Part shown: in pieces, positions 36,336 to 58,500 of the stretch
How the letters are laid out: each line of letters starts with the position of its first letter
Numbering within the stretch: the stretch's first letter is position 1
DNA from: Arcticibacter tournemirensis
Lineage (GTDB): Bacteria > Bacteroidota > Bacteroidia > Sphingobacteriales > Sphingobacteriaceae
Assembly: GCF_006716645.1 (NCBI RefSeq)
Contig: NZ_VFPL01000001.1
Span: 4,216,001-4,280,000 of the forward strand
DNA length: 64,000 nt
Direction: 5' to 3'
Notes under the pieces: generated by a model
What the model was told of the DNA's origin: nothing
The model's input: only the letters and a program-made list of their open reading frames with translations
Database searches by the model: none
Translations under genes and position numbers: made by a program

Positions 36336-39032
36336 TTACGGTAGCTTAACTACCCGTAAATAATCTATATATGCATCGTTTTTATACGTCCCTGTAAAAG
36401 ACATATTGTTATCAAATCCTTTATTTTCAGGATTAAGAAGTAATTTAACTGAATGCTTGCCTTTAGGCAGTTCTTTTAATATTAATTGGTTAGACATAGT
36501 CCATTTATTCCAGCTACCAGAAGATTCCAGTATAAAAGTCCCTGCATCCTTGCCATCTATAAATACGGATCGAACAAAACAATAAACGTCATGCGGCCCC
36601 CTCCCGTTAGATCCAATCAATGAAAAGGAATAATTCCCGTTTTCTGCTAAATCAACAGTAAATTCAAGATTGGCAGGTTTGGCGGCAAAGTCGACAACGT
36701 ATCCTTTTCCAGAATATCCTCTTGCGGTATCAGCTGTGTTAGTAAGATACTTCCCTTCTTCAGATTCAATTCTTATTACTGTTGAGGAATAAAGTATGGG
36801 ATTGGATAAATCTGACTCTAATCCGTTATCATTTACCGCACTAACAGAATAATATCCTTCAGGCTTATTTGCTAAACTATAAGGCGAAGTTGCATCCTCT
36901 TTACTATTATTTCCATATATTTTATACCGGAGTCCAGGCTTGGAGTGCCATATCAGCCGACCCTTTTCCAAATTTAATACAGGCTCATCCGGTGCCCAGC
37001 ATTTGCCTGGGCCGGCCTGCACTAAATTAATCTTTCTATTATCATTATTATCAGGCGATACTTCTATTTCAATAGTAAACTTCCCCTTAGCACTTGCAGG
37101 AAATTCAAATGGCAAAGATTGAACTTTTCCATTCACTCTGATGTTCTTCACCAAACTTCCCGTTCCTGTCAGTTTAATATCAAGCACACTATTTCTGTAT
37201 TTGAAATTTTTCAGATTTAGTTCTCCCTTTACTAGATCAGAGGGGACAACAGGTGAAAACAATAAGCCCGTTTCTGTCATTTCCATACCAAATAGTACCC
37301 GGTAGACCATACTTATATAGGAAGCTACAGACCACAGCTGACGATCGGAATTTAACGCAGTATTGCGATCATAGCCAGTATCATAGGTCATATTTTCTTT
37401 ATGTGTCAGAAACATCGCTCCCTGGCGAATCTGTGATTTCATGATATGACTTACCGCCGCTAAATTCTTAACACGTTTGGCAGCATATAAATAGGGAGTT
37501 TCCCAAACAGTCCACACGCTCTTGTTGTGATAAGCGAAGTCATCGGCAATGGTCGGATAAATAACAGCTCCGCCATAAGGATAAAGCGGATAATTTTCTA
37601 CAATACCCGATACCTGTTTTAAAGATGCTGCTCCAAGACAAGCAGCAAGCCCGTTCGACATAATATCAACCCGGGAGGATGGTTGATAATTCATAAACTG
37701 GGGATACAAATACGAATAATATAGTCCCTTTTTCTCGTCCCAAAAATGATCATTGATACCTTTCTTAACCTTCTTATAATACCATTCCCAAACATCTATC
37801 TCTTCATTCTTCTTGTTCAACAACTTTCCCGAGCGGGCAAGAAAATCATACAGGAACAAATGCAGCGCGTTTGTTCCTGACGAGAAAGACTCACCTATAT
37901 TTTCATTAGAGAACCAGTTGGGGTAAGTATGGGTTCTCCAGTCCATGGAACAGGTTTCACCTCTGAACAAATTAACGGTTTTATCAAAAGTTACATGAAT
38001 ATCCTTTATTGCCGTATAACTCAAGCCTTCGTAAGCTTCTGCGAGCCAAGCCTTATCGCCGGTTACTAAATAGTATTCCCACGCTGCCATTGCCCAAACA
38101 ACGCGATCAGTTGAAATAGGCCATGATCCTCCTGTTCCTGTATCCTGTAATGCCTCTTTAGGTTTCTTTAAAGTTTGCTTTCTAAGCGTCCTTCTTGATA
38201 TATCCTTCTGAATCCATGAAAATGCAAAATAAATACTATATACAGCATCACGTGTCCAGGTATCCGGCCATAAAGCGCCGGCCATAAAGGTAGAATCAGA
38301 GCGAATATCTAATTGCATTTCTTCCAGTGCCATGTTATAAAGGGCCACCATCATAGTATTATTTTCAGCTGTAAACTGTGGAAATAAGCCGATATTTTCT
38401 TTTAACTTCCATTGACCACCTTTCTCATGATAGTCCGATTGAATGCTGGTTATTGAAACAGCCTTCGACTCCCTTAAACCGAGAAAAGAGGCTTCAACTA
38501 CGCTGTCTGGGAAAATGGCAAATGGCAGCAGAGATCCTTTCTCTCTTACGAGCGTCCAATGCGAACGGTAGTTGGTATTTCTGTCAGTTTTATTCAATCC
38601 GGCTCCTGATCCAATCTGTGTTAATAATTCACCCTCTTTTTCCGAAAAGTTTGATAAGGTATACCAACTGCAATTTGCCATTTGTCTGATACCAAAACCT
38701 TTAAACAACCAAATAGCTCTTTCAGGCTTAACATTACTGGACAAGTTTGCACAAACTACCCGGCCACCGGCACCCGAAAGAAGGTAGTGGCCCGTCCTTT
38801 TATTACGAATTTTAACATTCTCAGATTCCGTGGATTCAGAAATCCAGAGATACCTGTCATCAGAAGGAGCTTTTCCAAATCTAAGAACTCCCTTATCCTC
38901 ATAAATGTATTCCCCGGTCTGCCTGCATTGCAAACTCCATTCGGAATAGACCTTTGATATTTGCGCATTTACTGACTTCTCGTGGCTTATTAAAAACAAT
39001 ACTATGCTGAGACAAACTAATTTTTTTTTCAC
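36336..39032 (-). CDS. Secreted (alpha/alpha)6-barrel glycosidase-like protein with lectin and CBM-like ends
   Basis: The 898-residue protein starts at a GTG with a signal peptide ending VNAQ (residue 24). Residues 25-165 resemble a beta-trefoil lectin with internal repeats. From about 215 to 650 lies a six-hairpin glycosidase-like domain, with LWPDTWTRDAVYSIYFAF near residue 255, CSMDWRTHTYPNWF and SVWTVWETPYLYAAK. The last 130 residues look like a CBM35-type module (IRIESEEGKYL, ending YIDYLRVVKLP). The exact GH family is unclear; related barrels include glycogen-debranching-like and GH63-type enzymes. It is the last gene of the locus operon. Confidence 0.7.
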   Translation of the reverse strand: MKKKLVCLSIVLFLISHEKSVNAQISKVYSEWSLQCRQTGEYIYEDKGVLRFGKAPSDDRYLWISESTESENVKIRNKRTGHYLLSGAGGRVVCANLSSNVKPERAIWLFKGFGIRQMANCSWYTLSNFSEKEGELLTQIGSGAGLNKTDRNTNYRSHWTLVREKGSLLPFAIFPDSVVEASFLGLRESKAVSITSIQSDYHEKGGQWKLKENIGLFPQFTAENNTMMVALYNMALEEMQLDIRSDSTFMAGALWPDTWTRDAVYSIYFAFSWIQKDISRRTLRKQTLKKPKEALQDTGTGGSWPISTDRVVWAMAAWEYYLVTGDKAWLAEAYEGLSYTAIKDIHVTFDKTVNLFRGETCSMDWRTHTYPNWFSNENIGESFSSGTNALHLFLYDFLARSGKLLNKKNEEIDVWEWYYKKVKKGINDHFWDEKKGLYYSYLYPQFMNYQPSSRVDIMSNGLAACLGAASLKQVSGIVENYPLYPYGGAVIYPTIADDFAYHNKSVWTVWETPYLYAAKRVKNLAAVSHIMKSQIRQGAMFLTHKENMTYDTGYDRNTALNSDRQLWSVASYISMVYRVLFGMEMTETGLLFSPVVPSDLVKGELNLKNFKYRNSVLDIKLTGTGSLVKNIRVNGKVQSLPFEFPASAKGKFTIEIEVSPDNNDNRKINLVQAGPGKCWAPDEPVLNLEKGRLIWHSKPGLRYKIYGNNSKEDATSPYSLANKPEGYYSVSAVNDNGLESDLSNPILYSSTVIRIESEEGKYLTNTADTARGYSGKGYVVDFAAKPANLEFTVDLAENGNYSFSLIGSNGRGPHDVYCFVRSVFIDGKDAGTFILESSGSWNKWTMSNQLILKELPKGKHSVKLLLNPENKGFDNNMSFTGTYKNDAYIDYLRVVKLP

Positions 39033-39061
39033 GTCAGATTATAACTAATGGTTACAGTTAT

Positions 39062-40411
39062 TTAAACACCGCTACTTATAAATTCACTCTCTATTTGTTC
39101 CAATGATTTACCTTTTGTTTCGGGGATCCATTTTATAACAAACAAAAACGTTAGCACGCAAAAGCCGGTAAAAACGGCAAACATCCAGGTCGTTCCCAGT
39201 TCTGCTCTTATAACGGGGGCAAACTGAATCGTCAGGAAACAGCATAACCAGCAAATCGCTGTAGAAAACGACATTGCCACTCCCCTTATCCTGGATGGAT
39301 ATATTTCAGAAATAACCACCCACATAACTGGAGCTAATGATGCTGCAAAAAACGACACATATGTCAGAAGCGCGATTAGTACGCTGAATGCGTTTTGAGA
39401 TGGCTTTGAAAACTCGTAAGTGAGATACCCCAGCGAGACTGCCATACCGGCAGCGCCCCATAATAACAACGTTTTACGGCCTTGTGAATCTATTAACCAT
39501 AAAGCAACAATAGTCATCAGGAAATTAATCAGGCCGAGAATTACCGACTGGAACATAGCTCCCTCTTTCATAGAACCTGCAGCCTGAAATATATCTGGCG
39601 CGTAAATCAGAACAGCATTCACTCCGGTGATTTGTTGCGCAGCAGCCAGAACTGTCGCTATCAAAACAACCCTCCCCGTTTTTCCTTTAAATAATTCTGT
39701 TAAGGAAACTCTTTCCTTGTCCTTCTCCTGATTAAGAGAAAATTCAATTGCCGGCAAATCTTCTTTTACTGACGTTTCTCCGCCAACTTTGAGAAGGACC
39801 AGGAGCGCATTGTCTTTTTTACCCTTGGCCAACAGCCACCTTGGGCTTTCGGGAAAAGACATGAACAATAAGATTAGAAATATAAGTCCGAAAACAGCCG
39901 GGATGCCAAGCATATACCGCCAACTATCATTACCAAGGCCTATCAGAAAATAATCAAAGACGTAAGCAAGAAGTATTCCTATTGTTATGGCAAATTGATT
40001 GAGAGAAACCATTGTTCCTCTGCTTTTAGCCGGTGATATTTCTGAAATATACATAGGAGCAATAACAGACGTAATTCCAACTGCTATTCCTGATAAAACC
40101 CGACCGGCATCGAGGAAAAAAATATTTGTCGTAAATGCACATACCAATGCCGACAATGTGTAAAGGACAGCTGAAGCTACCATTACTTTTTTTCTTCCAT
40201 ACAAATCTGCAAATCTGCCTGAAAACAACGCTCCAACTAAAGCTCCTATTGTAAGCAATGCAGCCACCGTGCCTAATGCAGAGTCGGTAAGACCGAACTC
40301 ACTTTTTATCATAGCGTTTGCTCCTGAAATGCCGGCAATATTAAGTCCAAACAAGAACCCTCCATTAATCGCGACAAACGTAATCCAGTATAAGTATTTT
40401 TTACTTGTCAT
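39062..40411 (-). CDS. MFS sugar porter (XylE/GalP-like)
   Basis: The 449-residue protein has twelve predicted membrane helices and the sugar-porter signatures: GRFADLYGRKKVM near residue 65, FPESPRWLLAKGK near residue 190, QQITGVNAVLIYAPDIF in helix 7 and a closing WIPETKGKSLEQIE. It should carry a hexose or pentose into the cytoplasm with protons. It lies in the operon between the sugar isomerase genes and a glycosidase, 29 bp from each neighbour, so it probably imports the sugar released in the periplasm. Confidence 0.93.
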   Translation of the reverse strand: MTSKKYLYWITFVAINGGFLFGLNIAGISGANAMIKSEFGLTDSALGTVAALLTIGALVGALFSGRFADLYGRKKVMVASAVLYTLSALVCAFTTNIFFLDAGRVLSGIAVGITSVIAPMYISEISPAKSRGTMVSLNQFAITIGILLAYVFDYFLIGLGNDSWRYMLGIPAVFGLIFLILLFMSFPESPRWLLAKGKKDNALLVLLKVGGETSVKEDLPAIEFSLNQEKDKERVSLTELFKGKTGRVVLIATVLAAAQQITGVNAVLIYAPDIFQAAGSMKEGAMFQSVILGLINFLMTIVALWLIDSQGRKTLLLWGAAGMAVSLGYLTYEFSKPSQNAFSVLIALLTYVSFFAASLAPVMWVVISEIYPSRIRGVAMSFSTAICWLCCFLTIQFAPVIRAELGTTWMFAVFTGFCVLTFLFVIKWIPETKGKSLEQIESEFISSGV

Positions 40412-40440
40412 TGGTTATTGATTTTTAAATGTACAATAAT

Positions 40441-41232
40441 TCAGGGTTCAAAATTATCCCATAGTCCTGCCTTTAATTGTGGTTTTGGAACATAAAGAAA
40501 GGTTTCCGGCTCCTCTTCAAAGATAGTGTATATCGGTTTGCCAGGCTGAATACCTAATCCTTCATACCTGTTCGGCGATTTACAGATGAGTTCAGACCTT
40601 TTATACGTTTGATTCGCCCTCCATTGAATTTCATTCTGTTCACTAAATGCCGGAAACCAGGCTATTCCTTTATGCCTTTTGATTCCATCATATACAAACC
40701 CGTAATCTCTGTCGCACCAGGCTCCGAAGGTAAGCGGACTTTCCGGATTTGCACTAATGGTAGCATGAGCCCAATCCGGCGGGACTATTACAACATCTCC
40801 AGGTTTAGCAAATACGGCAAAGCATCTCCCGGGATTGTCCTCGTCGTACTCCTGCATATAAATTACTGCTTCTCCCTCCCATATTTCGTAGATTTCAGGA
40901 GTAGACCAACCGCTATAGGAAGATATCTTATGTACGTGGCCCTGACTTCTAACCGGCTCCTCCCCTAACTTTCCTGCAGCATAGGTTACCACACCAAAAA
41001 GAAGATGCAAGTCCTTTAATAATTGTCGATGGACGGTTTTACCTACGTCCATTGCAATTGCATAAACTATTTCCGGCCCTTCACACCGGGGGTTTAGTAA
41101 ACTTTTACGAATGTCATCCAATCTTCTGTATTCTACTTCCGGACCGAAGACACCTTCTCCATACAAAAACCCCATCGGATTACTTATCGAATGGATAGCG
41201 AAACCTGGATTAAAACTATCTGATTTATGCAT
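40441..41232 (-). CDS. Cupin-type phosphoglucose isomerase-like protein (first copy)
   Basis: The 263-residue protein matches the cupin PGI family (GPI, PF06560), metal enzymes that interconvert glucose- and fructose-6-phosphate. The metal-binding cupin motif is QGHVHKISS with GWSTPEIYEIWEGEAVIYMQ, and a second histidine occurs in VPPDWAHATI. I start at MHKSDSFNPGF, which gives an 8-base overlap with the upstream isomerase gene; an earlier ATG at 41286 would overlap by 62 bases. A second, smaller member lies at 43953-44507. Its substrate may not be glucose-6-phosphate. Confidence 0.8.
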   Translation of the reverse strand: MHKSDSFNPGFAIHSISNPMGFLYGEGVFGPEVEYRRLDDIRKSLLNPRCEGPEIVYAIAMDVGKTVHRQLLKDLHLLFGVVTYAAGKLGEEPVRSQGHVHKISSYSGWSTPEIYEIWEGEAVIYMQEYDEDNPGRCFAVFAKPGDVVIVPPDWAHATISANPESPLTFGAWCDRDYGFVYDGIKRHKGIAWFPAFSEQNEIQWRANQTYKRSELICKSPNRYEGLGIQPGKPIYTIFEEEPETFLYVPKPQLKAGLWDNFEP

Positions 41233-42988
41233 TGGTTCGTACAAAAGCTTTAAGTGTTGCACATTGTTGTCCTTCCGATTCTCCATAAGGCCTTATGGTA
41301 TATTCGCCTACCCTCGCAGGGACAATAAAGGTTTCAGCATAATGTATTACAAAAGGATCAAACGAATGAGAAGGGCTTTCTACTATCACTTCCCTTCCTT
41401 CCACCAGATTCAGCACGTTTACACATCCGTTAGTGTTATGCAATACAGCATTAGTGAACCAGTGTCGCCGAGTTTCAATAAATTCCTGCTCATGAAGGCC
41501 TGTACGTTCTTCTATCCACCCGTCACCTTCTGACATTTTTGTTACACGGGAAATAAGTTCCTTTTTCACCCATTGCTCCGTTCTGTCCCATTGTATCACT
41601 TTACTGCCATGATCTATATTTATAGGACGGGGTTTTCCGTCGAGACCCGGCCTGCCCCAATCCCAAAGTTTAAATGTAAAAATATAAGGCGTAGCACTGA
41701 TTTCCAGCACCATTGACTCTGCGCCCGAACAATGAACTGTGCCTGCAGGAATAAGTACATGGTCATGCTTTTTTACAGAATATTTACCCACATATTTTTC
41801 AGTCGGAAACATGCCTGTCTTTTGAGATTCTTTAAGATCATTAATCATTTCAACCGGATTAATGTCTTCTTTAAACCCAAGATATACAACAGCTTCCTCT
41901 TTCGCATCCAGTAAATAGTAACTTTCGTCCTGCGTGTAATTCATCCCAAATTTATCCTGGATATACTCGGTTAAAGGATGAACCTGTAAACTCAGGTTAC
42001 CACCCGCCATGGTATCCAGAAAATCAAAGCGGATGGGAAACTCATCTCCAAAGCGGCCATATACCGGGATGCCCAGCAATTCTTTCGGATGGGCAAAAAC
42101 AAGATTTATAGAAGGTATTTCAAATTTTACATCTCCCAGTCCTAACAGAAGACTGTTTTCTTCGGGAACACAGTCGAAGCACCAGGCATAGTTCAATGCT
42201 CCTTTGTCCAGATCACAAATCTCTTTCATCCATTGGCCTCCCCATGGACCGGGATCAAAAAAAGGGACTACCCTAAACGGGCGCCTCGTAGCCTCGCGCA
42301 GCCCTGCCGTTATAGCTTCAGCAGAAGCCATCTTAGGTTCATCCGGCACATTTGTGTCAAGAACATAATCCCATTTCTTCATGAGTCGTTTCTTAAACCT
42401 GTCGCAAATACGCCAATCAACAAAGAAACCACGTTTATATTGAAGGGAAGCCTTTTCTTGGCAATTATTAACTCCTATATTGCTTACCTCGTTCCGACGG
42501 AACCGCATTTGTATTTCCCATCGGGCCATATCGGCATAAATCAGCACATCATACTCCGGCTGTAGATAGGCTGCCCCAACGCCATAAATAACTATAGTGC
42601 CTCCCGTTATTTCCGATATTGCTTTTCTTAATTCATAAACCTTCGCAGCATCAAAATAACTGTCTATATCATACCTGGTTATATACCCAAATATTTCGTC
42701 ATCTGTTATGTCTTCCCGAAGCTTCCTGTTCAATTCTGATTCATTTAACATAGCATCTGCCGATCGTATAAAGGTCACCGGGCCCATACCCTGTATAATT
42801 CCAGTCTCAATTTCGTTATCTAAAACCCCCTGATAACATTCTATAACCACTATTTTTCGTGTCGATCGTACACTGTCGATCTTCTTTCTGATCTCATTAC
42901 TTATATTTTGCCACCCGGTCCAGCATCGTGCTTTTTCGGAGGGAACAGGAATTACCGGATATTTGTCGTAATTTGAAGTTCTTGCCAT
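41225..42988 (-). CDS. Class I phosphomannose isomerase with a kinase-like N-terminal domain
   Basis: The 587-residue protein has two parts. Residues 1-210 resemble a nucleoside/uridine-kinase-like domain (KIVVIECYQGVLDNEIETGI), but the P-loop GxxxxGKS is missing, so ATP use is doubtful. Residues 225-587 are a class I mannose-6-phosphate isomerase: PFFDPGPWGGQWMKEI, the zinc ligands in LQVHPLTEYIQ and PAGTVHCSG, and ISATPYIFTFKLWDWGRPG. Class I enzymes interconvert mannose- and fructose-6-phosphate. It begins on the ROK gene stop (TAATG) and overlaps the next gene by 8 bases, so translation is coupled. Confidence 0.85.
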   Translation of the reverse strand: MARTSNYDKYPVIPVPSEKARCWTGWQNISNEIRKKIDSVRSTRKIVVIECYQGVLDNEIETGIIQGMGPVTFIRSADAMLNESELNRKLREDITDDEIFGYITRYDIDSYFDAAKVYELRKAISEITGGTIVIYGVGAAYLQPEYDVLIYADMARWEIQMRFRRNEVSNIGVNNCQEKASLQYKRGFFVDWRICDRFKKRLMKKWDYVLDTNVPDEPKMASAEAITAGLREATRRPFRVVPFFDPGPWGGQWMKEICDLDKGALNYAWCFDCVPEENSLLLGLGDVKFEIPSINLVFAHPKELLGIPVYGRFGDEFPIRFDFLDTMAGGNLSLQVHPLTEYIQDKFGMNYTQDESYYLLDAKEEAVVYLGFKEDINPVEMINDLKESQKTGMFPTEKYVGKYSVKKHDHVLIPAGTVHCSGAESMVLEISATPYIFTFKLWDWGRPGLDGKPRPINIDHGSKVIQWDRTEQWVKKELISRVTKMSEGDGWIEERTGLHEQEFIETRRHWFTNAVLHNTNGCVNVLNLVEGREVIVESPSHSFDPFVIHYAETFIVPARVGEYTIRPYGESEGQQCATLKAFVRTNA

Positions 42989-43947
42989 TAGTTAATTTCC
43001 CCCATTTTTAAGCGTTTTAATAAACTATACTGAATACCCAAAAGGGCGGCGCTGTCCTCCAGTCGAGAAGCTACAATATCAACTTTCCCAGATGGACACC
43101 AGGCTAATCTGTCTACCCGATCCTTAATATAGGGGATGATCAGATCCTTGCTCTTCATAATCCCTCCGCCAAGAACAATTATGTTCGGGTCGTACGCGTG
43201 TATATAGGTAACGATCGCGGCGGCCCAGATATCCATGCAATTGTTCCGAACAGTTATCGCATCAGTCTCGCCCTCACTTGCCAGAGAAAAGATTTTCTTG
43301 AAGTCGTACTGTACCGCTCTTTCTCTAAATTCTGGTGACAGTGCATCATTTTCAGAAATGATCTGCGGAAGGAACGATGAAGACGCCAACGCTTCCACGC
43401 ATCCTATATTTCCACAAGAACATCTTCTCGCTTTATAATCCACAACAAAATGGCCACCTAAAGAACCTGCCTGGAAATGCTCGCCATACAATAACGAATC
43501 ATCCATGATCACGCCAGTACCTATACCGGTTCCGATCGTAACCATCACTACATTTTTATGTCCGCAGGCTGCACCGTACTTCCACTCCCCAACAACGGCC
43601 AGCCGGGCATCGTTGTCCATAAAGAACGGCACTCTCCAGTTATTCTCAACCCACTCATTGAAATCCAGATCTCGTGCATCATCGTATTTCTTATTGGTTG
43701 AAATGATGGTATTATTTATCGGATTTACCAGCCCGGGAAAGGCCAATCCAACACCAGACAGTTCGTTCTGAGCGACATTTTCTTTAAACAACAGATCGTT
43801 TATCGCACTTTTAATAAGGGGCAGATTAGGTCTGACTCCACGCTCTGAAAAAGCCTCAAGCAGGGTAAAACCCGCAATCTTTCCATCACGTATCAAGCCC
43901 ACTTTCACTACTGTACCTCCTAAGTCTATGGCTATACTATACATCAT
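42988..43947 (-). CDS. ROK-family sugar kinase
   Basis: The 319-residue protein has the ATP-binding IAIDLGGTVVKVGLI at its N-terminus and MVTIGTGIGTGVIMDD (about 135-150). The zinc-binding ROK motif reads CSCGNIGCVEALAS near residue 172, preceded by the histidine of GGHFVVDYKARR. Catalytic aspartate lies in FMDNDARLAVVGEW. Members phosphorylate glucose, mannose, fructose, allose or amino sugars. There is no N-terminal DNA-binding domain, so it is an enzyme and not a ROK repressor. It sits between two isomerase genes with minimal spacing. Confidence 0.9.
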   Translation of the reverse strand: MMYSIAIDLGGTVVKVGLIRDGKIAGFTLLEAFSERGVRPNLPLIKSAINDLLFKENVAQNELSGVGLAFPGLVNPINNTIISTNKKYDDARDLDFNEWVENNWRVPFFMDNDARLAVVGEWKYGAACGHKNVVMVTIGTGIGTGVIMDDSLLYGEHFQAGSLGGHFVVDYKARRCSCGNIGCVEALASSSFLPQIISENDALSPEFRERAVQYDFKKIFSLASEGETDAITVRNNCMDIWAAAIVTYIHAYDPNIIVLGGGIMKSKDLIIPYIKDRVDRLAWCPSGKVDIVASRLEDSAALLGIQYSLLKRLKMGEIN

Positions 43948-43952
43948 TCTGC

Positions 43953-44507
43953 TTATATTAAACTGGCAACTCCATTTATATCAATCAGCCGTTTCGCAAA
44001 GCCATTCCTTGCAATCTCCTCATAATTATGACCGGCGTCAGAGGGCCAGCTGGCTGCAAAAGACAATAACTCCTTACCTGTGTTGGCCACCCTGTGCGCC
44101 ACTCTTCCGGGGATATAATGAAAGCTCCCCGGGAACATCTTTTCAGCCCACACCCTTCGCTGTTCATCCATCAATATCAGCACTCCCTCCCCCTTTATCC
44201 CCCAATAGAACTCAGTTCTATCTATCATAGCATGAAAATGACCTTTCGTCATAAAATATTCACCCCCAACACTACCCGGAAAAATAGATGTTACTCCGAA
44301 ATAAACCCCTCCCTGTGTTCCTTCTTTAACTGGCAAATAGCTGATTACTTCATACACCAGCGTTTCGGGGTCCATATTTTCAAAGGCGCGCTCATCCTTG
44401 AAAATGCCCCTCAGATCTTTCAGCTTACGGATGCTCTTGTCAACGCCTTCGCCTCCCAGATGATCATCTCTGAAAACGCGTTTAGGTTCATTTATAATTG
44501 TGTCCAT
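43953..44507 (-). CDS. Cupin-type phosphoglucose isomerase-like protein (second copy)
   Basis: This 184-residue protein is a compact cupin PGI. The metal site reads YFMTKGHFHAMIDRTEFYWG (about 83-102), followed by GEGVLILMDE and the second histidine in YIPGRVAHRVANTG. Size and motifs fit the archaeal/bacterial cPGI family (PF06560). It is only distantly similar to the first copy in the same operon, so the two probably handle different steps or substrates. It stops 5 bp before the ROK kinase gene. Confidence 0.85.
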   Translation of the reverse strand: MDTIINEPKRVFRDDHLGGEGVDKSIRKLKDLRGIFKDERAFENMDPETLVYEVISYLPVKEGTQGGVYFGVTSIFPGSVGGEYFMTKGHFHAMIDRTEFYWGIKGEGVLILMDEQRRVWAEKMFPGSFHYIPGRVAHRVANTGKELLSFAASWPSDAGHNYEEIARNGFAKRLIDINGVASLI

Positions 44508-46711: not shown

Positions 46712-46714
46712 CAC

Positions 46715-49795: not shown

Positions 49796-49863
49796 ATCAA
49801 AAACAAGGAGAATAAGAGGATATGGTCCAACATATCCTCTAATGACTATTATTGCTTATCGGC

Positions 49864-51348
49864 TCAGTAACCGGGGTTCTGTGTAAGATTTGGATTCCTG
49901 TCCATGATAGTCAATGGTATAGGAAATATATACGTATGCCTGTCAGCAGGATCAGAGTTAGGTTTAAAATCCCAGGTATTTTTAAAGACGTCAAAGCGGA
50001 TAAGATCATTTCTTCTCCAGCCTTCAAAAACAAACTCGAAGCCCCGTTCCTTGAGCAGAAGATCCAGAGTTAATGTTGACAATGGCTTGGCAGGATTAAA
50101 ATTCCGCTCCCGCACCTCGTTAACGAGAGCTCTCGCACCTTGTTCATCTCCCGTACGTAACATGCATTCGGCTTTCATCAGTAAAATATCCGAATAACGG
50201 AATATGGCGAAATCGTTATTTAAGTGCGTACGACCGCCCTTCTCAACTTCCCATTTAAACAGTCGGGCTCCTTCATTCTCGGTAGCACTCGCAAAATCTC
50301 TTACATCGATAGTAAAATTCAATGGTGTTATACCGTCGCGTGTATAGATAACTTCTCCTGTTGATGAACGCTGTGGGCCTATCAAAAATGAATTTCTTCT
50401 GGCATCAGCCAAATCAAAACTCTTTACGAAGCCCGGGACAGCACATGGCCCATTCCAGGAGCTGAACTGAACATCAAAAGTGAGGTAACTTGAATAATGC
50501 CATGACATCTGATATGGAATAAAATAGCCTCTGAAATAATCGGCGTCGTAAGGTATTGACCAGATATTTTCCTTGGACCCTTCATTTTTCACCTTAAAGT
50601 TGTTGAAGAAATTAGGCTCCAGCTCATAAAGGCCAGACTGAACTACTTTATTACAGTATTCCAGACACTTATTCCACTGCGGGGCGCCAGTGTATACTCC
50701 GGCGTTAAGGTACAATTTTGCTAAAATGGTATAGGCGACCCATTTTGTTGCTTTAGTATAGGTGTTCGTACTTTTTTCTTCGGTCAGTTTGTCAACTACA
50801 GCTAAAAGCTCCGACTCAACAAAATCATAAACTTCTTTACGTGTATTGTTCTTCGGCAGTTCTCCTTCAAATTCTGTCACTATCGGAACATTTCCGATAT
50901 TATCCAGCATCAGGAAATACCAAAATGCCCTGATCGTACGCAGCTCAGCATAAATCCTGTCTTTATTTTCAATCTCAACAGTGGTATTATCGAGCAGGTC
51001 TATAATTTTATTGACCGTTGTAACCTGCTCAAATCGCCAGAAATTGGGAGTTTCCCTGGCTGACCATTCGTGAGTATGATAACGTAAATGAATTCCGCCA
51101 GAATACCAATCGAGCCCTCTTGCCGGAATCATATATTCGTCGGTAGTGATCTCCTGCATCCAGAAGTCGTTGTTCACGTAATTTACGAGGGTGCCGTATG
51201 CCGGCCCAATCAATGAATTTATTTCTTCGGAAGTTCCGCCAAACTGACTTTGCGGAATTGAACTATATAATTCCTCATCAAGATCCGTACAAGCTGTTAT
51301 ACTAAGAACAGCTGATAGTATTATAGCTAACAAATAATTTTTTCTCAT
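49864..51348 (-). CDS. SusD/RagB-like nutrient-binding lipoprotein
   Basis: The 494-residue protein starts at MRKNYLLAII and has the lipobox SITAC (Cys19) followed by TDLDEELYSSIP. Helical TPR-type repeats and the C-terminal EFVFEGWRRNDLIRFDVFKN segment are typical of SusD. The C-terminus TIMDRNPNLTQNPGY is also standard. I prefer this start to an ATG 21 bases earlier that overlaps the susC stop and would add seven residues before the signal. It is the surface-lid partner of the intact SusC immediately upstream. Confidence 0.92.
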   Translation of the reverse strand: MRKNYLLAIILSAVLSITACTDLDEELYSSIPQSQFGGTSEEINSLIGPAYGTLVNYVNNDFWMQEITTDEYMIPARGLDWYSGGIHLRYHTHEWSARETPNFWRFEQVTTVNKIIDLLDNTTVEIENKDRIYAELRTIRAFWYFLMLDNIGNVPIVTEFEGELPKNNTRKEVYDFVESELLAVVDKLTEEKSTNTYTKATKWVAYTILAKLYLNAGVYTGAPQWNKCLEYCNKVVQSGLYELEPNFFNNFKVKNEGSKENIWSIPYDADYFRGYFIPYQMSWHYSSYLTFDVQFSSWNGPCAVPGFVKSFDLADARRNSFLIGPQRSSTGEVIYTRDGITPLNFTIDVRDFASATENEGARLFKWEVEKGGRTHLNNDFAIFRYSDILLMKAECMLRTGDEQGARALVNEVRERNFNPAKPLSTLTLDLLLKERGFEFVFEGWRRNDLIRFDVFKNTWDFKPNSDPADRHTYIFPIPLTIMDRNPNLTQNPGY

Positions 51349-51368
51349 GACCTTCAGTGTTAAATGCA

Positions 51369-54332
51369 TTAAAAAGAAAAATTAACTCCCAGAGAAAACG
51401 ACCTGGTCTTGGGATAGTAATTCCTGGCGTCTATTCCGAATACAAGCCCGTTCACATTTACTTCAGGGTCAATTCCCGTATAATTTGTTATAATGAACAG
51501 ATTGTTGGCAGTAGCAGAAAGCCTTAAGTTCTTTATTTTGGAAGAAGGAGGGAGCTTCACATCGTATCCTAAAGTCAGGTACTCAAGGCGAACAAAGCTT
51601 CCGTCCTCAATGTAGTAAGAGGAATACACTAATGGCTGTGCTGCAATATCTAGGGCTGTTTTGAGAACATTGTTTCCAGGCATGCGGTTAATGTCGTTGA
51701 GGTACAAAGCAGTTGAATTTGCAATATCATTACCGAACACTCCCCTAAGTAAAAGATCAAGTGAGAAGTTCTTATATTTCAGAGAATTAGACATATTCAG
51801 TGTAAAATCCGGCTGTGCGTTCCCTATTACTGTTCTGTCGTCTGCGTAAACAAACTTACCGTCGCCGCTCACATCTTCATACTGGAATATGCCGTTTGCA
51901 TCGCGGCCGATATATTTGGCGCCGTAAAACGTTCCGATAGCGTATCCTGGCTTAAGAATTTGCGGAGTTTCCTGTAATCCTCCTAAGGCCCATTCCCCCG
52001 TATACACTACATCCAGCTTAAATTCGTCGTTCGAAAGTGACTTCAGCTTATTCTTATTCCTGGCGAAATTGAGTCCCAGGTTCCATTTAAATTCACTGGA
52101 GTTTATTACCGTTGATTCAAGGGAAAGCTCAATACCCTTATTTTCAACCTCCCCAACATTTGCCATCATGGTATTGTACTGGTAAGGAGGGGTTGGCACG
52201 GGATAGTTATAGAGAAGATTGGAGGTTTGCTTATTGTAATAATCAATACTGCCTCTGAACCTGCCGCCTAAAAACGAATAGTCGATTCCGGCATCAAACT
52301 GGGCGGTTTCCTCCCATTTCAGGTTCGGGTTCGGATTTTGATTAGGTGCATATTGTGTAAAAAACTCTCCTCCCTGATAGTAGTACCCTGCAGCACCATA
52401 AAGGGCGAGTGCAGTGTAATTCGGAATCTCCTGATTACCGGTTATTCCATAGCTCGTACGCAGCTTTAACTCATCTATAAATCTCACATCCCGCAGGAAA
52501 GGCTCTTTATTGATAGCCCATGCGACTGATCCTGAGGGAAAAATCCCCCATTTGTTATCCTTACCAAAGCGGGTTGATCCATCCCTCCTAATAGTCCCGG
52601 TAAATATATATCTCCCGTCAAAAGAATAGTTAGCTCTTGCGTAGAATGAAATAAGCTTGTTCTTTTCTTTAAAACTTGATATATCCGTTGGGGTTAAATT
52701 ATTGCCGGCTCCCAGATTATTATACAAAAAAAGGTCAGTTATAAAGTCACGGTTCTGCGCTGCAAAATTCTCAGGCGTAAACTCCTGATAGGAGTATCCA
52801 AGAATTGCGTTTATCTTATGCTTTTCGTTAAATGTCCGGTCATAGGTGAGCGTCGACTCGATTAACTTTGAATTATCCTCGCTTGTAGTTCTTCTGGCAA
52901 AGCCATTGGTCTGTTCGGCAGCTCTCGATACCCTCGACTCATAATAACCGGTCATCAGATTACGCCTGGAAATAGACCCATTGATAGCAGCGGAAAACCC
53001 TTTAAAAAATGTATATTCCAACTGCATCCTCCCCAGGAACTGATTTCTCTTACTATCAGATGTCATTTGATTAAGCATCGCTACCGGATTATAGTATTCA
53101 TATCCAGAGACTTCCTTAAATTTGCCATTTTCATCATAAACCGGAATAGTAGGATTTAAATTGAGGGCATAAGCAAAAACGTTCGCTGTAGGAACACTTC
53201 CCCAATCTTCAATCGTCGTGTTGGCGTTAATTAAAAGTTTCAGTTTACCATCCAATCCCGTTTGGTCAAAAGCGATATTGGCATTAACCCTTTGCAGGTC
53301 ATTTGATAAAACGATACCTTTCTGGTCAAGATAATTTACAGATGCACGATATGTAGAACTTTCGGTACCACCCGTTAAACTGATATTATGGTTCTGCGAA
53401 TGGCCCCTTCTATAAACCTCTTGCTGCCACTTTGTATCCGCTCCATAATCCATCGCATTCGTAATATTGTGTGATTGAACGTAATTGCGCCAGTCCTCGG
53501 CTGTAAGCATGTCCAGGTTATTCGCAAGGTTTTCTGTAGCAAAATAGCCGTCATAAGAAATAGCAGTTTTGCCGGCCTTCCCTTTTTTTGTCGTGATAAG
53601 AATAACCCCATTCGCGCTTCTTGCGCCATAAATAGCAGCGGCAGAAGCATCCTTTAGTACGCTTATGGATGCAATATCCTGAGGGGCAACACTATTGATT
53701 GAAGCTCCCGGAACCCCGTCAATCACCACAAGGGGGCCATTACCTCCCATAAGAGAGGTCGATCCTCTTAGCCTCATGGTTACTTCCTGCGTCGGGTCTC
53801 CGCCCGGCCTGGTAACAACGAGACCTGAAACTTTACCCTGCATCAGTTGCTCCGGCGATGTAACTACTCCCTTGTTAAAGTCCTTTTCAGATACATTTGT
53901 TACGGAGCCTGAAAGATCCTTCTTCTGAATAGTCCCATATCCGATAGCTACAACTTCCTGAAGCATTACAGATTCTTCTGCCAATGTAATTCTAAGCTCT
54001 GTACTAGTACCTATTACTACTGTCTGGGTCTTCATCCCAATAAAAGACACCACAAGTTCAGCTGCGCCTGTTGGAACCTTTATTGAGAACTTCCCCTCGG
54101 TATCTGTAGTTGTACTGACCCGTGTACCTTTTACAGTAATGGTTACCCCGGGCAATGTTTCGCCGCTGGCCGCTACAACTACTCCGCCAATAGTACGGTC
54201 CTGCCCCGTTTTATCTTTTGCTAATAATACATTAGCATTCAAAAGATTGAAGCAACAGAATAGCAGCAACAATCTCCGACAAGAAAGCATTAACCTCTTG
54301 TCCCTCTTTTTTGCAAGTAACTTTCTTTCCAT
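51369..54332 (-). CDS. SusC/RagA-like TonB-linked outer-membrane channel
   Basis: The 987-residue protein has an N-terminal signal region, a carboxypeptidase-regulatory-like domain (TIGGVVVAASGETLPGVTIT, about 47-66), the TonB-box-like ESVMLQEVVAIGYGT and the SusC plug with SISVLKDASAAAIYGARSAN. A long barrel ends RSFSLGVNFSF. It is intact, in contrast to the broken SusC at 27669-30840. With the SusD gene after it, it forms the entry channel of the locus. The AraC gene upstream probably controls it. Confidence 0.93.
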   Translation of the reverse strand: MERKLLAKKRDKRLMLSCRRLLLLFCCFNLLNANVLLAKDKTGQDRTIGGVVVAASGETLPGVTITVKGTRVSTTTDTEGKFSIKVPTGAAELVVSFIGMKTQTVVIGTSTELRITLAEESVMLQEVVAIGYGTIQKKDLSGSVTNVSEKDFNKGVVTSPEQLMQGKVSGLVVTRPGGDPTQEVTMRLRGSTSLMGGNGPLVVIDGVPGASINSVAPQDIASISVLKDASAAAIYGARSANGVILITTKKGKAGKTAISYDGYFATENLANNLDMLTAEDWRNYVQSHNITNAMDYGADTKWQQEVYRRGHSQNHNISLTGGTESSTYRASVNYLDQKGIVLSNDLQRVNANIAFDQTGLDGKLKLLINANTTIEDWGSVPTANVFAYALNLNPTIPVYDENGKFKEVSGYEYYNPVAMLNQMTSDSKRNQFLGRMQLEYTFFKGFSAAINGSISRRNLMTGYYESRVSRAAEQTNGFARRTTSEDNSKLIESTLTYDRTFNEKHKINAILGYSYQEFTPENFAAQNRDFITDLFLYNNLGAGNNLTPTDISSFKEKNKLISFYARANYSFDGRYIFTGTIRRDGSTRFGKDNKWGIFPSGSVAWAINKEPFLRDVRFIDELKLRTSYGITGNQEIPNYTALALYGAAGYYYQGGEFFTQYAPNQNPNPNLKWEETAQFDAGIDYSFLGGRFRGSIDYYNKQTSNLLYNYPVPTPPYQYNTMMANVGEVENKGIELSLESTVINSSEFKWNLGLNFARNKNKLKSLSNDEFKLDVVYTGEWALGGLQETPQILKPGYAIGTFYGAKYIGRDANGIFQYEDVSGDGKFVYADDRTVIGNAQPDFTLNMSNSLKYKNFSLDLLLRGVFGNDIANSTALYLNDINRMPGNNVLKTALDIAAQPLVYSSYYIEDGSFVRLEYLTLGYDVKLPPSSKIKNLRLSATANNLFIITNYTGIDPEVNVNGLVFGIDARNYYPKTRSFSLGVNFSF

Positions 54333-54397
54333 TTTGGTTAATTGATTAGATTGAAATTCTTTTTGTATTTACTATACACATACTCATTTGTATACTA

Positions 54398-54405
54398 CAA
54401 AAATA
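54398..54405 (-). promoter_or_regulatory. -7 element upstream of the locus SusC gene
   Basis: The minus strand reads TATTTTTG, matching TAnnTTTG, 65 bases before the SusC start. The 296-bp gap between SusC and the AraC gene is AT-rich and otherwise without a gene, so it should hold the regulated promoter of the 18-kb operon. An AraC binding site cannot be pinned down by eye. Confidence 0.4.
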
Positions 54406-54628
54406 GAGGCTCTCACAACCGCCTTTTTATGCCATTTTCACCAATGATTCTGGTATTTTATTAAAATGAACCTTTAATAATTGATCTGTGCAGCGCGTTT
54501 AAATAAATAGGATAATTGCATCTACGAATGCTAAAAGACAGAGGTTTCCCTCCCCGAATTATCGATCCCGGGATATTCTTTATGAAAAAAAGTGGCTAAC
54601 ACCACTATGGTATCATTAGTATTTTATA

Positions 54629-55513
54629 CTAATATCTGTTTTGTTTGCCGCCGTATTTCTTCTGGTATTCAGAGGGTGACATTTTGGTTGAGCGTTTAAA
54701 TTGATCAATAAAGTTAGACAAGTTATTAAAGCCGGATTCGATGCTAAGCGTAGCAATAGTTGACTTTCCCTCTATCAACAGTTTCTTTGCATGCCCGATC
54801 CTCACATCGTTCAGATACTGAACAAAGGTTTTCTTAGTCCTCTCCCGGAAATAACGGCAGAACGCATTTGGTGTAAGGCTTGCCAGCGAAGCTACCTCTT
54901 CCAGACGGATGGGACGGGAGAAGTTTCTCATTATAAACTGATAAACTTTGTTAAAACGCTCAAAGTCGCCTGAGTCGATGGTATTCCTCACAAAGCCAAC
55001 ACTGGCGAGCGTCTCATATTCGTCGGTAGTAGCCATGCATTCCAGTAAAGATATCAGTTTGGCAATCCTGAATGCTCCGGTTTCATTAATATACTCAAGG
55101 ATTCTTTCTGTTATCACCTCTTTAGATTTCCCTACAAACTTCACTCCCCTGTTAGACCTGGATAAAAGATTACGGATATTGCTCATTTCCGGAAGGTTAA
55201 GCATATTGACTCCGAAGATGTCTTTGAGGAAAAACAGGCACCAGCATGAAGCTTTTAATTTAGATTCTTTATGAAAAAACACATCATGGTTTCTCCATTC
55301 GTGAGGCAGATTGGATCCTATTAAGCACAAATCGCCTTCCTCATACTCTTCTACATGATCACCGACAAAACGAGTACCTGTACCTTCGAGGATATACATA
55401 ATTTCTACTTCGGGGTGGTAGTGCCAGGGAACAATAAAATGGGGAAGTTCTTCTTTGTAGACGTTTATATAACTTGCGCGGTGAAACGGTAATTCCTGGT
55501 ATAGCGGTCTCAT
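54629..55513 (-). CDS. AraC-family transcriptional regulator with cupin sensor domain
   Basis: The 294-residue protein has an N-terminal cupin domain with PHFIVPWHYHPEVEIMYILE (about 25-44), which may bind a sugar or related ligand. A C-terminal pair of helix-turn-helix motifs follows (RLEEVASLASLTPNAFCRYF and IATLSIESGFNNLSNFIDQF, ending STKMSPSEYQKKYG). AraC regulators of this shape commonly control carbohydrate loci. It lies between the two peptidase-like genes and the SusC operon on the same strand, so it is the likely activator of the whole locus. Confidence 0.9.
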   Translation of the reverse strand: MRPLYQELPFHRASYINVYKEELPHFIVPWHYHPEVEIMYILEGTGTRFVGDHVEEYEEGDLCLIGSNLPHEWRNHDVFFHKESKLKASCWCLFFLKDIFGVNMLNLPEMSNIRNLLSRSNRGVKFVGKSKEVITERILEYINETGAFRIAKLISLLECMATTDEYETLASVGFVRNTIDSGDFERFNKVYQFIMRNFSRPIRLEEVASLASLTPNAFCRYFRERTKKTFVQYLNDVRIGHAKKLLIEGKSTIATLSIESGFNNLSNFIDQFKRSTKMSPSEYQKKYGGKQNRY

Positions 55514-55540
55514 AATTGGTGTGTTTACGGGTTTGTTTTA

Positions 55541-57049
55541 TTAGGGGCTCCACTTCATATTCATATCCAGCGGATAACTGGGTCTACCGACATTTTTATA
55601 TTTTATGTTCTTTATATCGAGATTACAGAATCCGGACGTTAAAGCCATTAGCTGGGCAGGAGCTATGTCCCGAAGTTCGGGATAAAGATACCCTAACTTA
55701 ACCACTACTACTTTAAATTGCAGTGGATCTAATCCCAATTCTTTAAAATCCCGAATTTCAACGAACGACCTCCTGGCTTTCAAAACCACAACATATACAC
55801 CATTAACATCAAGTAAAGCAGCGGCTCTGTGAGTACCAACTTCCGAATCCAATGTTAAATATAAAACTTTCCCTTCTACTTTTAATGGCTTGCTGTACAC
55901 ATGATCAATTTTTCCGCCGAGTTGTAAACTTATCTGTTTATTAGCTCCCACTTCTGCACACTTTTTAAAAGCATCCTCATCAACAATACCCGCAACCAGT
56001 GCATTTTTTGTGCCCCTTCGTAGAACGGCGGCCAGGACGTTCATATTATCACCCGGCGCCCCGGCAGTTGTATTGTCTCCCGAATCGGAGATAAACACCG
56101 TCTTTCCCGCACTTTCTCCTGCCGCTGTCAGCATCTGGTCGATCGTACCGGAAGGTACGTCAAGCGTCATTTTTGTTCTGCAGTCCCAAATCTGTTGAGC
56201 GAGGTTGACCGCCTCCCTGCGTGCGGCGCTCTTGTACAAATCACTTTTAGCTACAACAAACACCCTCATTGCAGAACGCGGCAGGTCTGCCCAACAATAT
56301 CCGGCAAATATAGAGGCGTCCATAATCCCTTCTTTTGAAGCTACCGCGGGAAGTTGTGAGTATATTGATTTTAAAGGATCTCTTTCGGTAACACTCTTTT
56401 CGCCCGGCACAAGTATTGGTATTGTTACCGATTCAATATGCGGTTTCAAATGTTGCCTTATTGCATCAACCAGCATCTTTACAGCCCGTGTCCTCGTTTC
56501 CTCTTCATCGCGATGAGGGGCAGTGCGATAAGCCGTCAGCATATTAATATGTTTCACAAATTCGGTGGAAGGGTTGCCGTGCAGATCAAAACTTCCGCAG
56601 ATCAAAACATCTTCACCTGCTATCTCCCTGATTTCCTTTATTAAAGTTGCCTGCGCATCAGCATAGCCCTCCACATGAAGCGCACCGTGAAGGTCCATGT
56701 AAATACCGTCGAGACGGCCTGCCGATCTCACTCCCTCCAGCATGTCCTCCTTAAAGCTCTCAAATGCCGAGCGTTCAACTACTCCCCCTGGCCAGGCATA
56801 AGCGTGAAGAGTAGGAATAACTTCAACCTTTTCGGCTTTCAGAAAATCGGCCCACATTTTTCCTTTCAATGCATTTTCGCCCTTTAATACCGAAAAGTCG
56901 GACGCCTTCGTCGGAGAGGTCGAAAACGTGTTTGATTCATTTCTGATGCCAAGAGTGAGCACTCTGATTACCTTATCGAAAGCAAAGCCCTCAACTTTAA
57001 TGGGAAGCAACAGCCAGCCCAAAAACATACCGGTTAAAAACGTCTTCAT
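55541..57049 (-). CDS. M81-family metallopeptidase (MlrC-like)
   Basis: The 502-residue protein matches the MlrC/DUF1485 family, zinc enzymes that include the microcystin-degrading MlrC. A signal peptide (to about KVEG) suggests periplasmic location. The metal site is visible in GSFDLHGNPST (about 155-165) and AYRTAPHRDEEETRTRA. DSGDNTTAGAPGDN near residue 320 is a conserved C-terminal block. Outside microcystin breakdown, members probably cleave small peptide or amide substrates. It starts 4 bp after the M24-like gene and precedes the AraC gene by 27 bp. Confidence 0.85.
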   Translation of the reverse strand: MKTFLTGMFLGWLLLPIKVEGFAFDKVIRVLTLGIRNESNTFSTSPTKASDFSVLKGENALKGKMWADFLKAEKVEVIPTLHAYAWPGGVVERSAFESFKEDMLEGVRSAGRLDGIYMDLHGALHVEGYADAQATLIKEIREIAGEDVLICGSFDLHGNPSTEFVKHINMLTAYRTAPHRDEEETRTRAVKMLVDAIRQHLKPHIESVTIPILVPGEKSVTERDPLKSIYSQLPAVASKEGIMDASIFAGYCWADLPRSAMRVFVVAKSDLYKSAARREAVNLAQQIWDCRTKMTLDVPSGTIDQMLTAAGESAGKTVFISDSGDNTTAGAPGDNMNVLAAVLRRGTKNALVAGIVDEDAFKKCAEVGANKQISLQLGGKIDHVYSKPLKVEGKVLYLTLDSEVGTHRAAALLDVNGVYVVVLKARRSFVEIRDFKELGLDPLQFKVVVVKLGYLYPELRDIAPAQLMALTSGFCNLDIKNIKYKNVGRPSYPLDMNMKWSP

Positions 57050-57053
57050 TATA

Positions 57054-58466
57054 TTAACTTTTCAGACTGAAAACCTTTTTATAGTTGAGAAAAAACGGGG
57101 GTACCAAAGCGGGCATATTCGACAGCGGCAATACTTCTTCCGGCAGCGCGATTCCAAGCTCTTCTTTCATGAATTCTCTCCTGCGCATGCAGCGATCATA
57201 GGTTTCGGGATATTGCTGCTTCACTTGCATCCGTAACTCTTCATCCGCAATAATGATCCCATCTTCCATCCTCGACGAATAGTATTTTTCTGAATGAGGA
57301 ATAATGTCTACCTGAAAATACATTCCCGACCGGATCTCATCCTCCGAATTCTTATATACGGGCGAGCTCACCCACTCTTCATAATGAATCAAATGTCCCG
57401 GATTAAGAAAAATCTGAAAATCTTCAAATGGAAGACGACCGCTGATAATGTCATACAGAACCTTCCCTTTTGTGCCGATCCTTATATTCTCCAGCCACTT
57501 CACACATGCAGAAAAATAAGGCGCCGCGAATTTTTCGATATAGTCTTTAGCCTCTACGGGAAGATCATCTTCACTTTCCACAACCCAGCCGGCACGACAA
57601 ATATTGCTTCCCCAATAGGACAGATTAACAGAACAGGAATCTCCTTTTTTTACCAATGCCCCAACCGGACTCGAAAGTCCGATACGCTTATTTCCAGAAC
57701 TCTTTAAACCTACGTGACATCCTAAGGGATAACCGGTAAACTGATATTCCCTTACCAGTTCAAAATCGGTAACATCGTACCTGAAATTCTTCAATAGATT
57801 TATCACTCCTTCCGATGCCATTACATTTGAAAACTCAAAATGAGCAATCTCAAACGCCGAACAAGCAGCTTTAAGGCCGTAAACAGGCGACATCAGAATA
57901 TCAGATGCGTTCACCACATTACCCTTACCACATAACAGCTGAAGGGTATTAACGATAAAATGAGGCAGTTCTATGGCCGCTTCATACTCCAGAAACTCGA
58001 TTTCCGTAAAATACTTCCATCCTATACACCCGACCTTCGATGCCTCATTGATTACCTCGTCGCTCAAGATCTCCCTAAGAGACCTGCTTTCGTCCCTCGG
58101 CTGACTAATAAGCGAAAATGGCTGATAACGTTCGAATCTGAGCTTACTATCGTTAAATATGGGAGATACTGTTAAATGACTTACACATTCATTTCCCACC
58201 AGCAGCAAGGGAACGCCCTGTTCCTTTATGATTAGCAGCGCTTCTTCGAAGCGAGGGTCAAAGTGCGCCAGATACATTAAATTACCACAATGCTCCCTGT
58301 CCGCATACACTACCAAATGAGTCAGGCTTCGCGCCCTCATCATCTCCCTGCATTTTTCTATCCTCGATTCAATCTCCCCTGACGAAGGATAAATTACCGG
58401 CGTAGCCGATCCGAAATCAGGCCACTCAATTTCCTTTAGATATACTTTTTCTGCTTGCACGGTCAA
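57054..58466 (-). CDS. M24-family (creatinase/aminopeptidase P-like) protein with altered metal ligands
   Basis: The 470-residue protein has a Creatinase_N domain (about 30-200) and an M24 pita-bread domain (about 205-430). At the normal first metal ligands it reads KGDSCSVNLSYWGSNICRAG, with Asn where metallo-aminopeptidases have Asp. A histidine remains in FLNPGHLIHYEEW, the next ligand is Asp in YFQVDIIP, and the final glutamate persists in SSRMEDGIII. Creatinase, a metal-independent M24 enzyme, is a possible model. No signal peptide is seen. The start is TTG or the GTG two codons later; no ATG is near. Confidence 0.75.
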   Translation of the reverse strand: MTVQAEKVYLKEIEWPDFGSATPVIYPSSGEIESRIEKCREMMRARSLTHLVVYADREHCGNLMYLAHFDPRFEEALLIIKEQGVPLLLVGNECVSHLTVSPIFNDSKLRFERYQPFSLISQPRDESRSLREILSDEVINEASKVGCIGWKYFTEIEFLEYEAAIELPHFIVNTLQLLCGKGNVVNASDILMSPVYGLKAACSAFEIAHFEFSNVMASEGVINLLKNFRYDVTDFELVREYQFTGYPLGCHVGLKSSGNKRIGLSSPVGALVKKGDSCSVNLSYWGSNICRAGWVVESEDDLPVEAKDYIEKFAAPYFSACVKWLENIRIGTKGKVLYDIISGRLPFEDFQIFLNPGHLIHYEEWVSSPVYKNSEDEIRSGMYFQVDIIPHSEKYYSSRMEDGIIIADEELRMQVKQQYPETYDRCMRRREFMKEELGIALPEEVLPLSNMPALVPPFFLNYKKVFSLKS

Positions 58467-58492
58467 TTATAATTTTAAAAAGATCCTGTAAA

Positions 58493-58500
58493 CAAATATA
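58493..58500 (-). promoter_or_regulatory. -7 element for the M24/M81/AraC unit
   Basis: The minus strand reads TATATTTG, an exact TAnnTTTG match, 27 bases before the M24-like start. No TTTG lies at the expected spacing. The 285-bp gap to the NAGLU gene end shows no other gene. Confidence 0.45.

Follow-up and report, generated by a model that had tools for sequence, protein, structure and literature searches.

A SusC/SusD Locus of Arcticibacter tournemirensis with an M81-Type Hydrolase, Unclassified Six-Hairpin Glycosidase-Like Proteins, and a Recurring Isomerase Cassette

Introduction

SusC/SusD pairs are a mark of Bacteroidota. GH76 and GH92 enzymes serve alpha-mannan breakdown, ROK proteins act as sugar kinases, phosphomannose isomerases (PMI) isomerize mannose phosphate, and MlrC is a hydrolase of microcystin degradation. 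Here, a locus of 13 genes around a SusC/SusD pair is described in Arcticibacter tournemirensis (assembly GCF_006716645.1, contig NZ_VFPL01000001.1, positions 4,216,001 to 4,280,000 of the forward strand). This whole stretch of 64,000 nucleotides (nt) is referred to as the window. The closest described systems are alpha-mannan loci, the MlrC microcystinase, archaeal cupin phosphoglucose isomerases (PGI), and six-hairpin glycosidases and phosphorylases.

Alpha-mannan loci of the GH76/GH92 type, one of which is found in the same genome, share with the locus the SusC/SusD pair, the MFS porter, the ROK kinase, and a relative of a two-domain PMI, whereas the 13 genes of the window carry neither GH76 nor GH92 and add extra cupin isomerases, an M81 protein, and unclassified glycosidases. 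By Pfam, none of the alpha-mannan or N-glycan locus markers GH76, GH92, GH18, and GH85 is present among them. MlrC belongs to the same Pfam fold family as the M81 protein of the window, which keeps its zinc ligands; however, the latter stands in a glycan locus, and its relative in Flavihumibacter is fused to a glycosidase-like protein. The archaeal cupin PGI (PDB 4lul and 2gc0) aligns over its full length, metal ligands included, with a cupin of 184 amino acids (aa), whereas a second cupin of 281 aa matches at about 31 bits only and lacks the DAGH segment. The GH94, GH95, GH65, and GH63 enzymes resemble the model of a 724-aa protein in fold and domain order, but that protein is only 9–14% identical to them and passes the cut-off of no family model.

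Three subjects become accessible to testing through the locus: M81 hydrolases beyond microcystin degradation, a broad glycosidase-like family that is unnamed in the libraries used (Pfam and NCBIfam), and a portable isomerase cassette whose two cupin families seem interchangeable. In the titles and abstract openings covered by a literature search, which took in part of the large result sets, neither an M81-glycosidase fusion nor such a cassette was found described.

The Locus and Its Proposed Function

Families were assigned by Pfam and NCBIfam profile searches, and relatives were sought in a family set of about 199–201 genomes and a phylum set of 326 genomes; G and L numbers denote genomes and stretches, respectively. 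The 13 genes lie on the minus strand between 36336 and 58466 (Table 1), at distances of at most 68 bp or overlapping, with the sole exception of 296 bp before SusC. An earlier note on this DNA had described a tightly spaced, one-strand SusC/SusD locus with M81, AraC, ROK, and MFS genes, and the profile searches bear this out. With adjacent SusC and SusD genes, a regulator, and putative glycosidase genes all on the same strand, it qualifies as a SusC/SusD polysaccharide utilization locus.

The reading that we tentatively favor is that the locus would take up an amide- or peptide-linked glycoconjugate and obtain from it a mannose- or glucose-type hexose. SusC and SusD would bring pieces of the substrate into the periplasm, where the exported 1026-, 724-, and 898-aa six-hairpin proteins would trim the sugar part and the exported M81 protein would hydrolyze an amide bond, or a similar one, in that substrate. 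Once released, the hexose would enter through the MFS porter and be phosphorylated by the ROK kinase; channeling the hexose-6-phosphate into glycolysis would then fall to the two-domain PMI and to both cupins, the 184-aa PGI and the 281-aa protein. We infer export, substrate, amide bond, hexose, and every reaction in this scheme; the likeliest hexose would be mannose, or a mix of mannose and glucose. A hydrophobic N-terminal segment on the M81, 1026-, 724-, and 898-aa proteins, and none on the 470-aa protein and the isomerases, suggests periplasmic hydrolysis and cytoplasmic sugar-phosphate steps, the look at export being a crude hydropathy of the N-termini rather than a signal-peptide predictor.

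A bolder version appears unlikely. It holds that the M81 and 1026-aa proteins would be a new two-activity pair freeing sugar from the amide-linked partner of an undescribed glycoconjugate, that the 470-aa protein would act in the cytoplasm to finish degrading the partner, and that the 281-aa cupin would be a new hexose-phosphate isomerase.

Table 1. Genes of the locus, from 58466 down to 36336
Gene product	Position	Strand	Evidence
470-aa protein, family unrecognized	57054..58466	-	TTG start; no N-terminal hydrophobic segment; no Pfam/NCBIfam match
M81/MlrC-type metallohydrolase	55541..57049	-	PF07364 289.7 bits, PF07171 152.5 bits; N-terminal hydrophobic segment
AraC-type regulator with cupin sensor	54629..55513	-	PF12833, PF07883; 45% relative in Maribellus L219
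SusC	51369..54332	-	TIGR04056 803.8 bits
SusD	49864..51369	-	PF07980 95.7 bits
1026-aa six-hairpin-type protein, putatively exported (N-terminus)	46715..49795	-	PF17389 29.6 bits; fused behind M81 in L086:5461-9969
724-aa six-hairpin-type protein, putatively exported (N-terminus)	44540..46714	-	AF2 model and Foldseek; 151 relatives
184-aa cupin phosphoglucose isomerase (putative)	43953..44507	-	PF06560 88.1 bits; H90, H92, E99, H138 at metal-ligand positions
ROK sugar kinase	42988..43947	-	PF00480 176.3 bits
587-aa two-domain protein: N-terminal domain (~1-230) and type I PMI domain	41225..42988	-	PMI structure alignments
281-aa PGI-family cupin	40441..41286	-	PF06560 69.5 bits; H117, H119, E131, H174 kept
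MFS sugar porter	39062..40411	-	TIGR00879 338.4 bits
898-aa six-hairpin-type protein, weak C-terminal CBM6/CBM35 match	36336..39032	-	PF17389 25.4 bits; PF03422 21.1 bits, below cut-off; 57% relative in L086

The M81 Hydrolase and the Flavihumibacter Counterpart

The M81 protein, the only PF07364 gene product of this genome, is assigned to the M81/MlrC family by its profile match and its zinc ligands. According to the MlrC report (PMC9982164), the ligands of that enzyme are E39, D167, H169, and H191, the last being printed as H191 in two places and as H196 in one. Aligned with 3iuu and the MlrC structure 7ylq, the window's protein has E38, D155, H157, and H179 at the equivalent positions, in agreement in both alignment and spacing. 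A PF07364 gene is present in 33 of the 199 genomes of the family.

In Flavihumibacter petaseus NBRC 106054, one frame of 1502 aa (L086:5461-9969) joins an M81 domain (residues 26–482) to a homolog of the 1026-aa protein (56%) behind it. The fusion is flanked by homologs of the 470-aa (62%), 724-aa (60%), ROK (54%), and 898-aa (57%) proteins, and the order 470-aa, M81, 1026-aa, 724-aa is preserved. The divergent side carries a GntR/LacI regulator, a 184-type cupin, a PMI, a MannoseP_isomer cupin, an MFS porter, and an asparaginase-family gene; no relative of the 281-aa cupin and no close relative of the AraC regulator were found in this locus. A second fusion of this type was not seen, the longest frame among the M81 matches listed being 788 aa. 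Conservation of the whole set in other Bacteroidota, which the earlier note had raised, amounts to this single near-complete counterpart; the isomerase cassette is present in 10 other loci.

In two genomes of the window's own family, G158 and G185, the M81 gene adjoins a regulator, a cupin, a PMI, a second cupin, and an MFS gene. The assignment of M81 to the catabolic locus is supported, because the protein is fused to the 1026-aa relative in Flavihumibacter and its gene lies beside the cassette in G158 and G185. In both of these genomes, a PF01112-type gene (asparaginase/glycosylasparaginase superfamily) follows the relative of the 724-aa gene. Such genes were recognized by Pfam in G158, Flavihumibacter, and G493 and by similarity in G185. 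The fusion and the asparaginase-family neighbors in G158, G185, and Flavihumibacter add weight to the amide idea, and an amide- or peptide-like partner is a fair guess on this evidence; it had been proposed with an M24 protein as a second cleaving enzyme, a part that is not retained.

The Glycosidase-Like Proteins

The proposal of three six-hairpin glycosidase-like proteins of unclear family holds. The 1026- and 898-aa proteins score just above the PF17389 cut-off of 24.5 bits, whereas the 724-aa protein, at 17.9 bits, falls below it and is placed by its AlphaFold2 (AF2) model (pLDDT 91.8, from an alignment of 42 sequences). Beyond these weak matches, Pfam and NCBIfam leave all three unclassified. 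In Foldseek, the 724-aa model matched GH94, GH95, GH65, GH63, and GH116 structures with E-values down to 3.6e-17, the template modeling (TM) scores by query ranging from 0.39 to 0.59 among the top 50. This predicted similarity is a match at clan level and points to no family.

The best 80 of the 151 relatives of the 724-aa protein occur in records of Bacteroidota, Verrucomicrobia, Planctomycetota, Lentisphaerae, and Aminicenantes. Within the family set, strong matches are confined to 3 of 201 genomes, rising to 6 at E ≤ 0.001, where the other three score 20–22 bits. All three strong genomes are among the seven with a close PMI described below (p about 3e-5, relatedness ignored). For the 1026-aa protein, the searches, which scored only part of each genome's first-look candidates, gave weak matches only, with maxima of 36.5 bits among 19 other genomes of the phylum set of 326 and of 33.1 bits among 7 of 195 genomes from another family.

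The Isomerases and the Recurring Cassette

The 587-aa protein has no Pfam PMI match and is a putative type I PMI by its alignment to the PMI structures 1zx5 and 1qwr. Its Q335, H337, and E355, at the zinc-site positions of type I PMI (Q and H of QxHP, E of ExxY), are kept in all 26 aligned relatives, while R446 is replaced by Q in two and QVHP by QCHP in six. QxHP and ExxY are presumably the catalytic motifs of this class. The first 230 or so residues (42300-42988) gave one doubtful short Pfam match (ParD, 22.7 bits) and no convincing Pfam family; the same domain recurs in those two-domain relatives whose aligned part extends that far.

Over its whole length, the 184-aa cupin can be aligned with archaeal PGI structures (134 bits); by its PF06560 match and HxH...E...H ligand pattern, it is a PGI-family member. 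The 281-aa cupin is also above the PF06560 cut-off with metal ligands kept, while the DAGH segment is absent in 6 of 6 aligned members; an ATG inside the frame, at 41232, agrees better with its relatives. Strong matches to it come from 2 of 201 family genomes (6 listed) and, in the phylum set, from 3 of 326 (4 listed). The three sugar-phosphate isomerases claimed for the locus therefore stand as family members (two PF06560 proteins and one type I PMI by structure), with the reservation that the 281-aa cupin lacks DAGH. No sugar-specific NCBIfam model is passed by the ROK protein, the best being a glucokinase-type model at 141.2 bits against a cut-off of 260.35.

The PMI query matched 126 of 201 family genomes, single-domain PMIs included, with 84 matches in 82 genomes above 300 bits; at an identity of at least 57%, seven family genomes remain, this one among them. 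Twenty PMI neighborhoods (14 close ones, including a second copy in this genome, and 6 more distant) were compared with the window. In these 21, a GH92 cluster is present in 14 and a GH76 cluster in 8, the clusters being single-linkage ones with one member each confirmed by Pfam. The locus of the second copy (C1:254901-294900) has the gene order GntR-like, PMI, MFS, ROK-like, SusC, SusD, SusE, GH76, GH92; of these, MFS, SusE, GH76, and GH92 were checked by Pfam and the remainder by similarity or eye.

The cassette, defined as a 184-type cupin, a PMI, and a third cupin, was sought in 105 stretches, of which 15 were listed. It is found together in 11 loci, the window included, with Maribellus counted as L094 and L219. 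Seven loci have a third cupin of the 281-aa type (window, G140, G437, G377, L094, L095, and L096), six have one of the MannoseP_isomer type (PF01050; G054, G158, G185, G111, G052, and L086), and no locus read has both; the 184-type cupin is missing from the stretch read in G377, and the PMI from that in G052. Left out of this split are L139, where a MannoseP cupin and a 724-type gene stand without any further gene of the cassette, and G072, where PMI and MFS are present but both small cupins are missing. Under independence, the split would have a probability of about 1e-4, shared ancestry being ignored and G437 and G377 having been found through the 281-aa cupin itself. It is a hint that the two families replace each other in the cassette.

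The companions of the cassette vary, with GH127 in G140, GH2 in G054, and MGH1-like and GH127-type proteins in Maribellus, where AraC, SusC, and SusD are kept (45, 38, and 39%) along with a 724-type gene. Between SusD and the cassette, Maribellus also encodes a 521-aa protein (L219:6380-7942) with weak similarity, below cut-offs, to L-arabinose isomerase and sulfoquinovose isomerase.

This genome has an ordinary PGI and a single-domain PMI as well, so the isomerases of the locus are extra and a rarer hexose would be conceivable. The earlier note had gone further, arguing that standard glycan loci do not carry three sugar-phosphate isomerases, since housekeeping enzymes suffice, and that the set suggests an unusual hexose. 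The housekeeping enzymes are indeed there, but the premise fails: because relatives of the PMI are found in GH76/GH92 loci and the set recurs with other glycosidases, the isomerases alone imply no unusual hexose. The cassette looks like a portable hexose-phosphate module and gives no proof of a rare sugar; as the mark of one rare hexose peculiar to this locus, the set was rejected. What survives of the proposed coherent catabolic system is the locus with its unclassified glycosidases, without the isomerase argument.

An unusual hexose of the allose, altrose, talose, or gulose type, converted by ROK to the 6-phosphate and by the three isomerase-family proteins to fructose-6-phosphate through isomerization or epimerization, is on balance improbable. 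It would account for the redundancy with the ordinary enzymes, for three isomerase-type genes together in 11 loci, for a 281-aa cupin with ligands and no DAGH, and for a kinase over no equivalog cut-off; on the other side stand the PMI family in mannan-type loci, the full-length alignment of the 184-aa cupin with archaeal PGI, and the lack of any 3-epimerase-type gene recognized by Pfam or NCBIfam among the 13.

The Nature of the Substrate

Several observations weigh against an amide-linked glycoconjugate as the substrate. The full set was seen in two genomes only, and no recognized mannosidase is present among the 13 genes of the locus. The majority of M81 genes belong to genomes that lack the cassette, and only 4 of the 33 M81 genomes are among the seven with a close PMI; for the M81 genes of G523, G527, and one of the two of G111, no cassette gene was seen within 6–10 kb on either side. 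The M81 domain of one G111 protein (L208:5961-8288, 776 aa) is joined to an SMP-30/gluconolactonase-like domain, so M81 need not act on amides and has fusion partners of more than one kind. The 724-type genes are likewise found mostly elsewhere: the cassette was seen in 4 of the best 80 loci and not in the other 76 in the stretches available, many being short contigs, and among 20 neighboring proteins from nine 724-type loci and L219, no common substrate emerged, the mixture comprising glycosidases, sialidase-like, and housekeeping proteins. The asparaginase-family proteins, finally, find their top NCBIfam match in beta-aspartyl-peptidase, far below its cut-off. Further out in Flavihumibacter, a GH92 gene about 11 kb beyond the set and a GH20 gene stand beside a second SusCD pair and GH43; the GH92 gene counts for the favored reading, and the lactonase-type fusion of G111 against it.

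An ordinary neutral-glycan locus would explain part of this. The isomerases would be duplicates that raise flux, and the M81 and 470-aa proteins would either be passengers or have lactones or esters of sugars as their substrates. The varied glycosidases that accompany the cassette in G140, G054, and Maribellus, the majority of cassettes without M81, and the G111 fusion are in keeping with it. This reading is nonetheless judged unlikely, as it leaves aside the fusion of M81 to the 1026-aa relative, the order of four genes kept in Flavihumibacter, and the presence of asparaginase-family genes at three related loci. A true N-glycan or glycopeptide locus, with asparagine or a peptide as partner, N-acetylglucosamine (GlcNAc) and mannose as sugars, and the upstream GH89 gene included, is quite unlikely: the four PF01112-type genes, the same-strand GH89 gene 285 bp away, and the outlying GH92 and GH20 of Flavihumibacter speak for it, but the PF01112 proteins lie nearest to beta-aspartyl-peptidase, the 13 genes include no GH18, GH85, PNGase, GH92, or GH20, and GH89 has no relative in the comparison loci.

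The 470-aa Protein

The name M24-like, given earlier to the 470-aa protein, did not withstand the searches. No M24 match was obtained in Pfam at E ≤ 5, and PF00557 at E ≤ 10 hit four places in the genome, none at this gene. Profile-profile comparison with two M24 groups of the same genome gave probabilities of 0.2% and 0.1%, against 84.9% for the control between the two groups, all alignments being shallow and that of the 470-aa protein comprising three sequences. An M24/creatinase-type identity was rejected on these three negative tests with a working control. The predicted structure has a pLDDT of 31.7. Strong matches occur in 2 of 326 phylum genomes (3 listed), and 62% relatives are found in Flavihumibacter (L086) and in G493. 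In the latter (L176:7538-19992, L177:1-1402), the gene lies in a different, sugar-acid-like cluster with an HpcH/HpaI aldolase, 3-hydroxyisobutyrate-type and 2-hydroxyacid dehydrogenases, and a dihydroxyacid dehydratase, the PF01112 gene being about 11 kb off.

Neighboring Genes and Other Sites

Upstream on the same strand, the interval 58752-63377 holds a GH89 gene (NAGLU, PF05089), a gene of the endonuclease/exonuclease/phosphatase (EEP) family, and a DUF5689 gene. None of the three was adopted as a member; no relative of GH89 or DUF5689 was found in the other stretches searched, which for GH89 comprise the other 104 stretches and further Flavihumibacter DNA. Relatives of the EEP gene are found only in two Prevotellaceae loci (L100 and L102), where they immediately precede a 724-type gene.

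Promoter-like and terminator-like sites were close to chance counts (51 versus 42.7 and 16 versus 15.9, respectively). Even so, the strongest terminator-like site of the scan, a ten-pair hairpin with a T-rich tail, lies at 49815-49840, between SusD and the gene of the 1026-aa protein.

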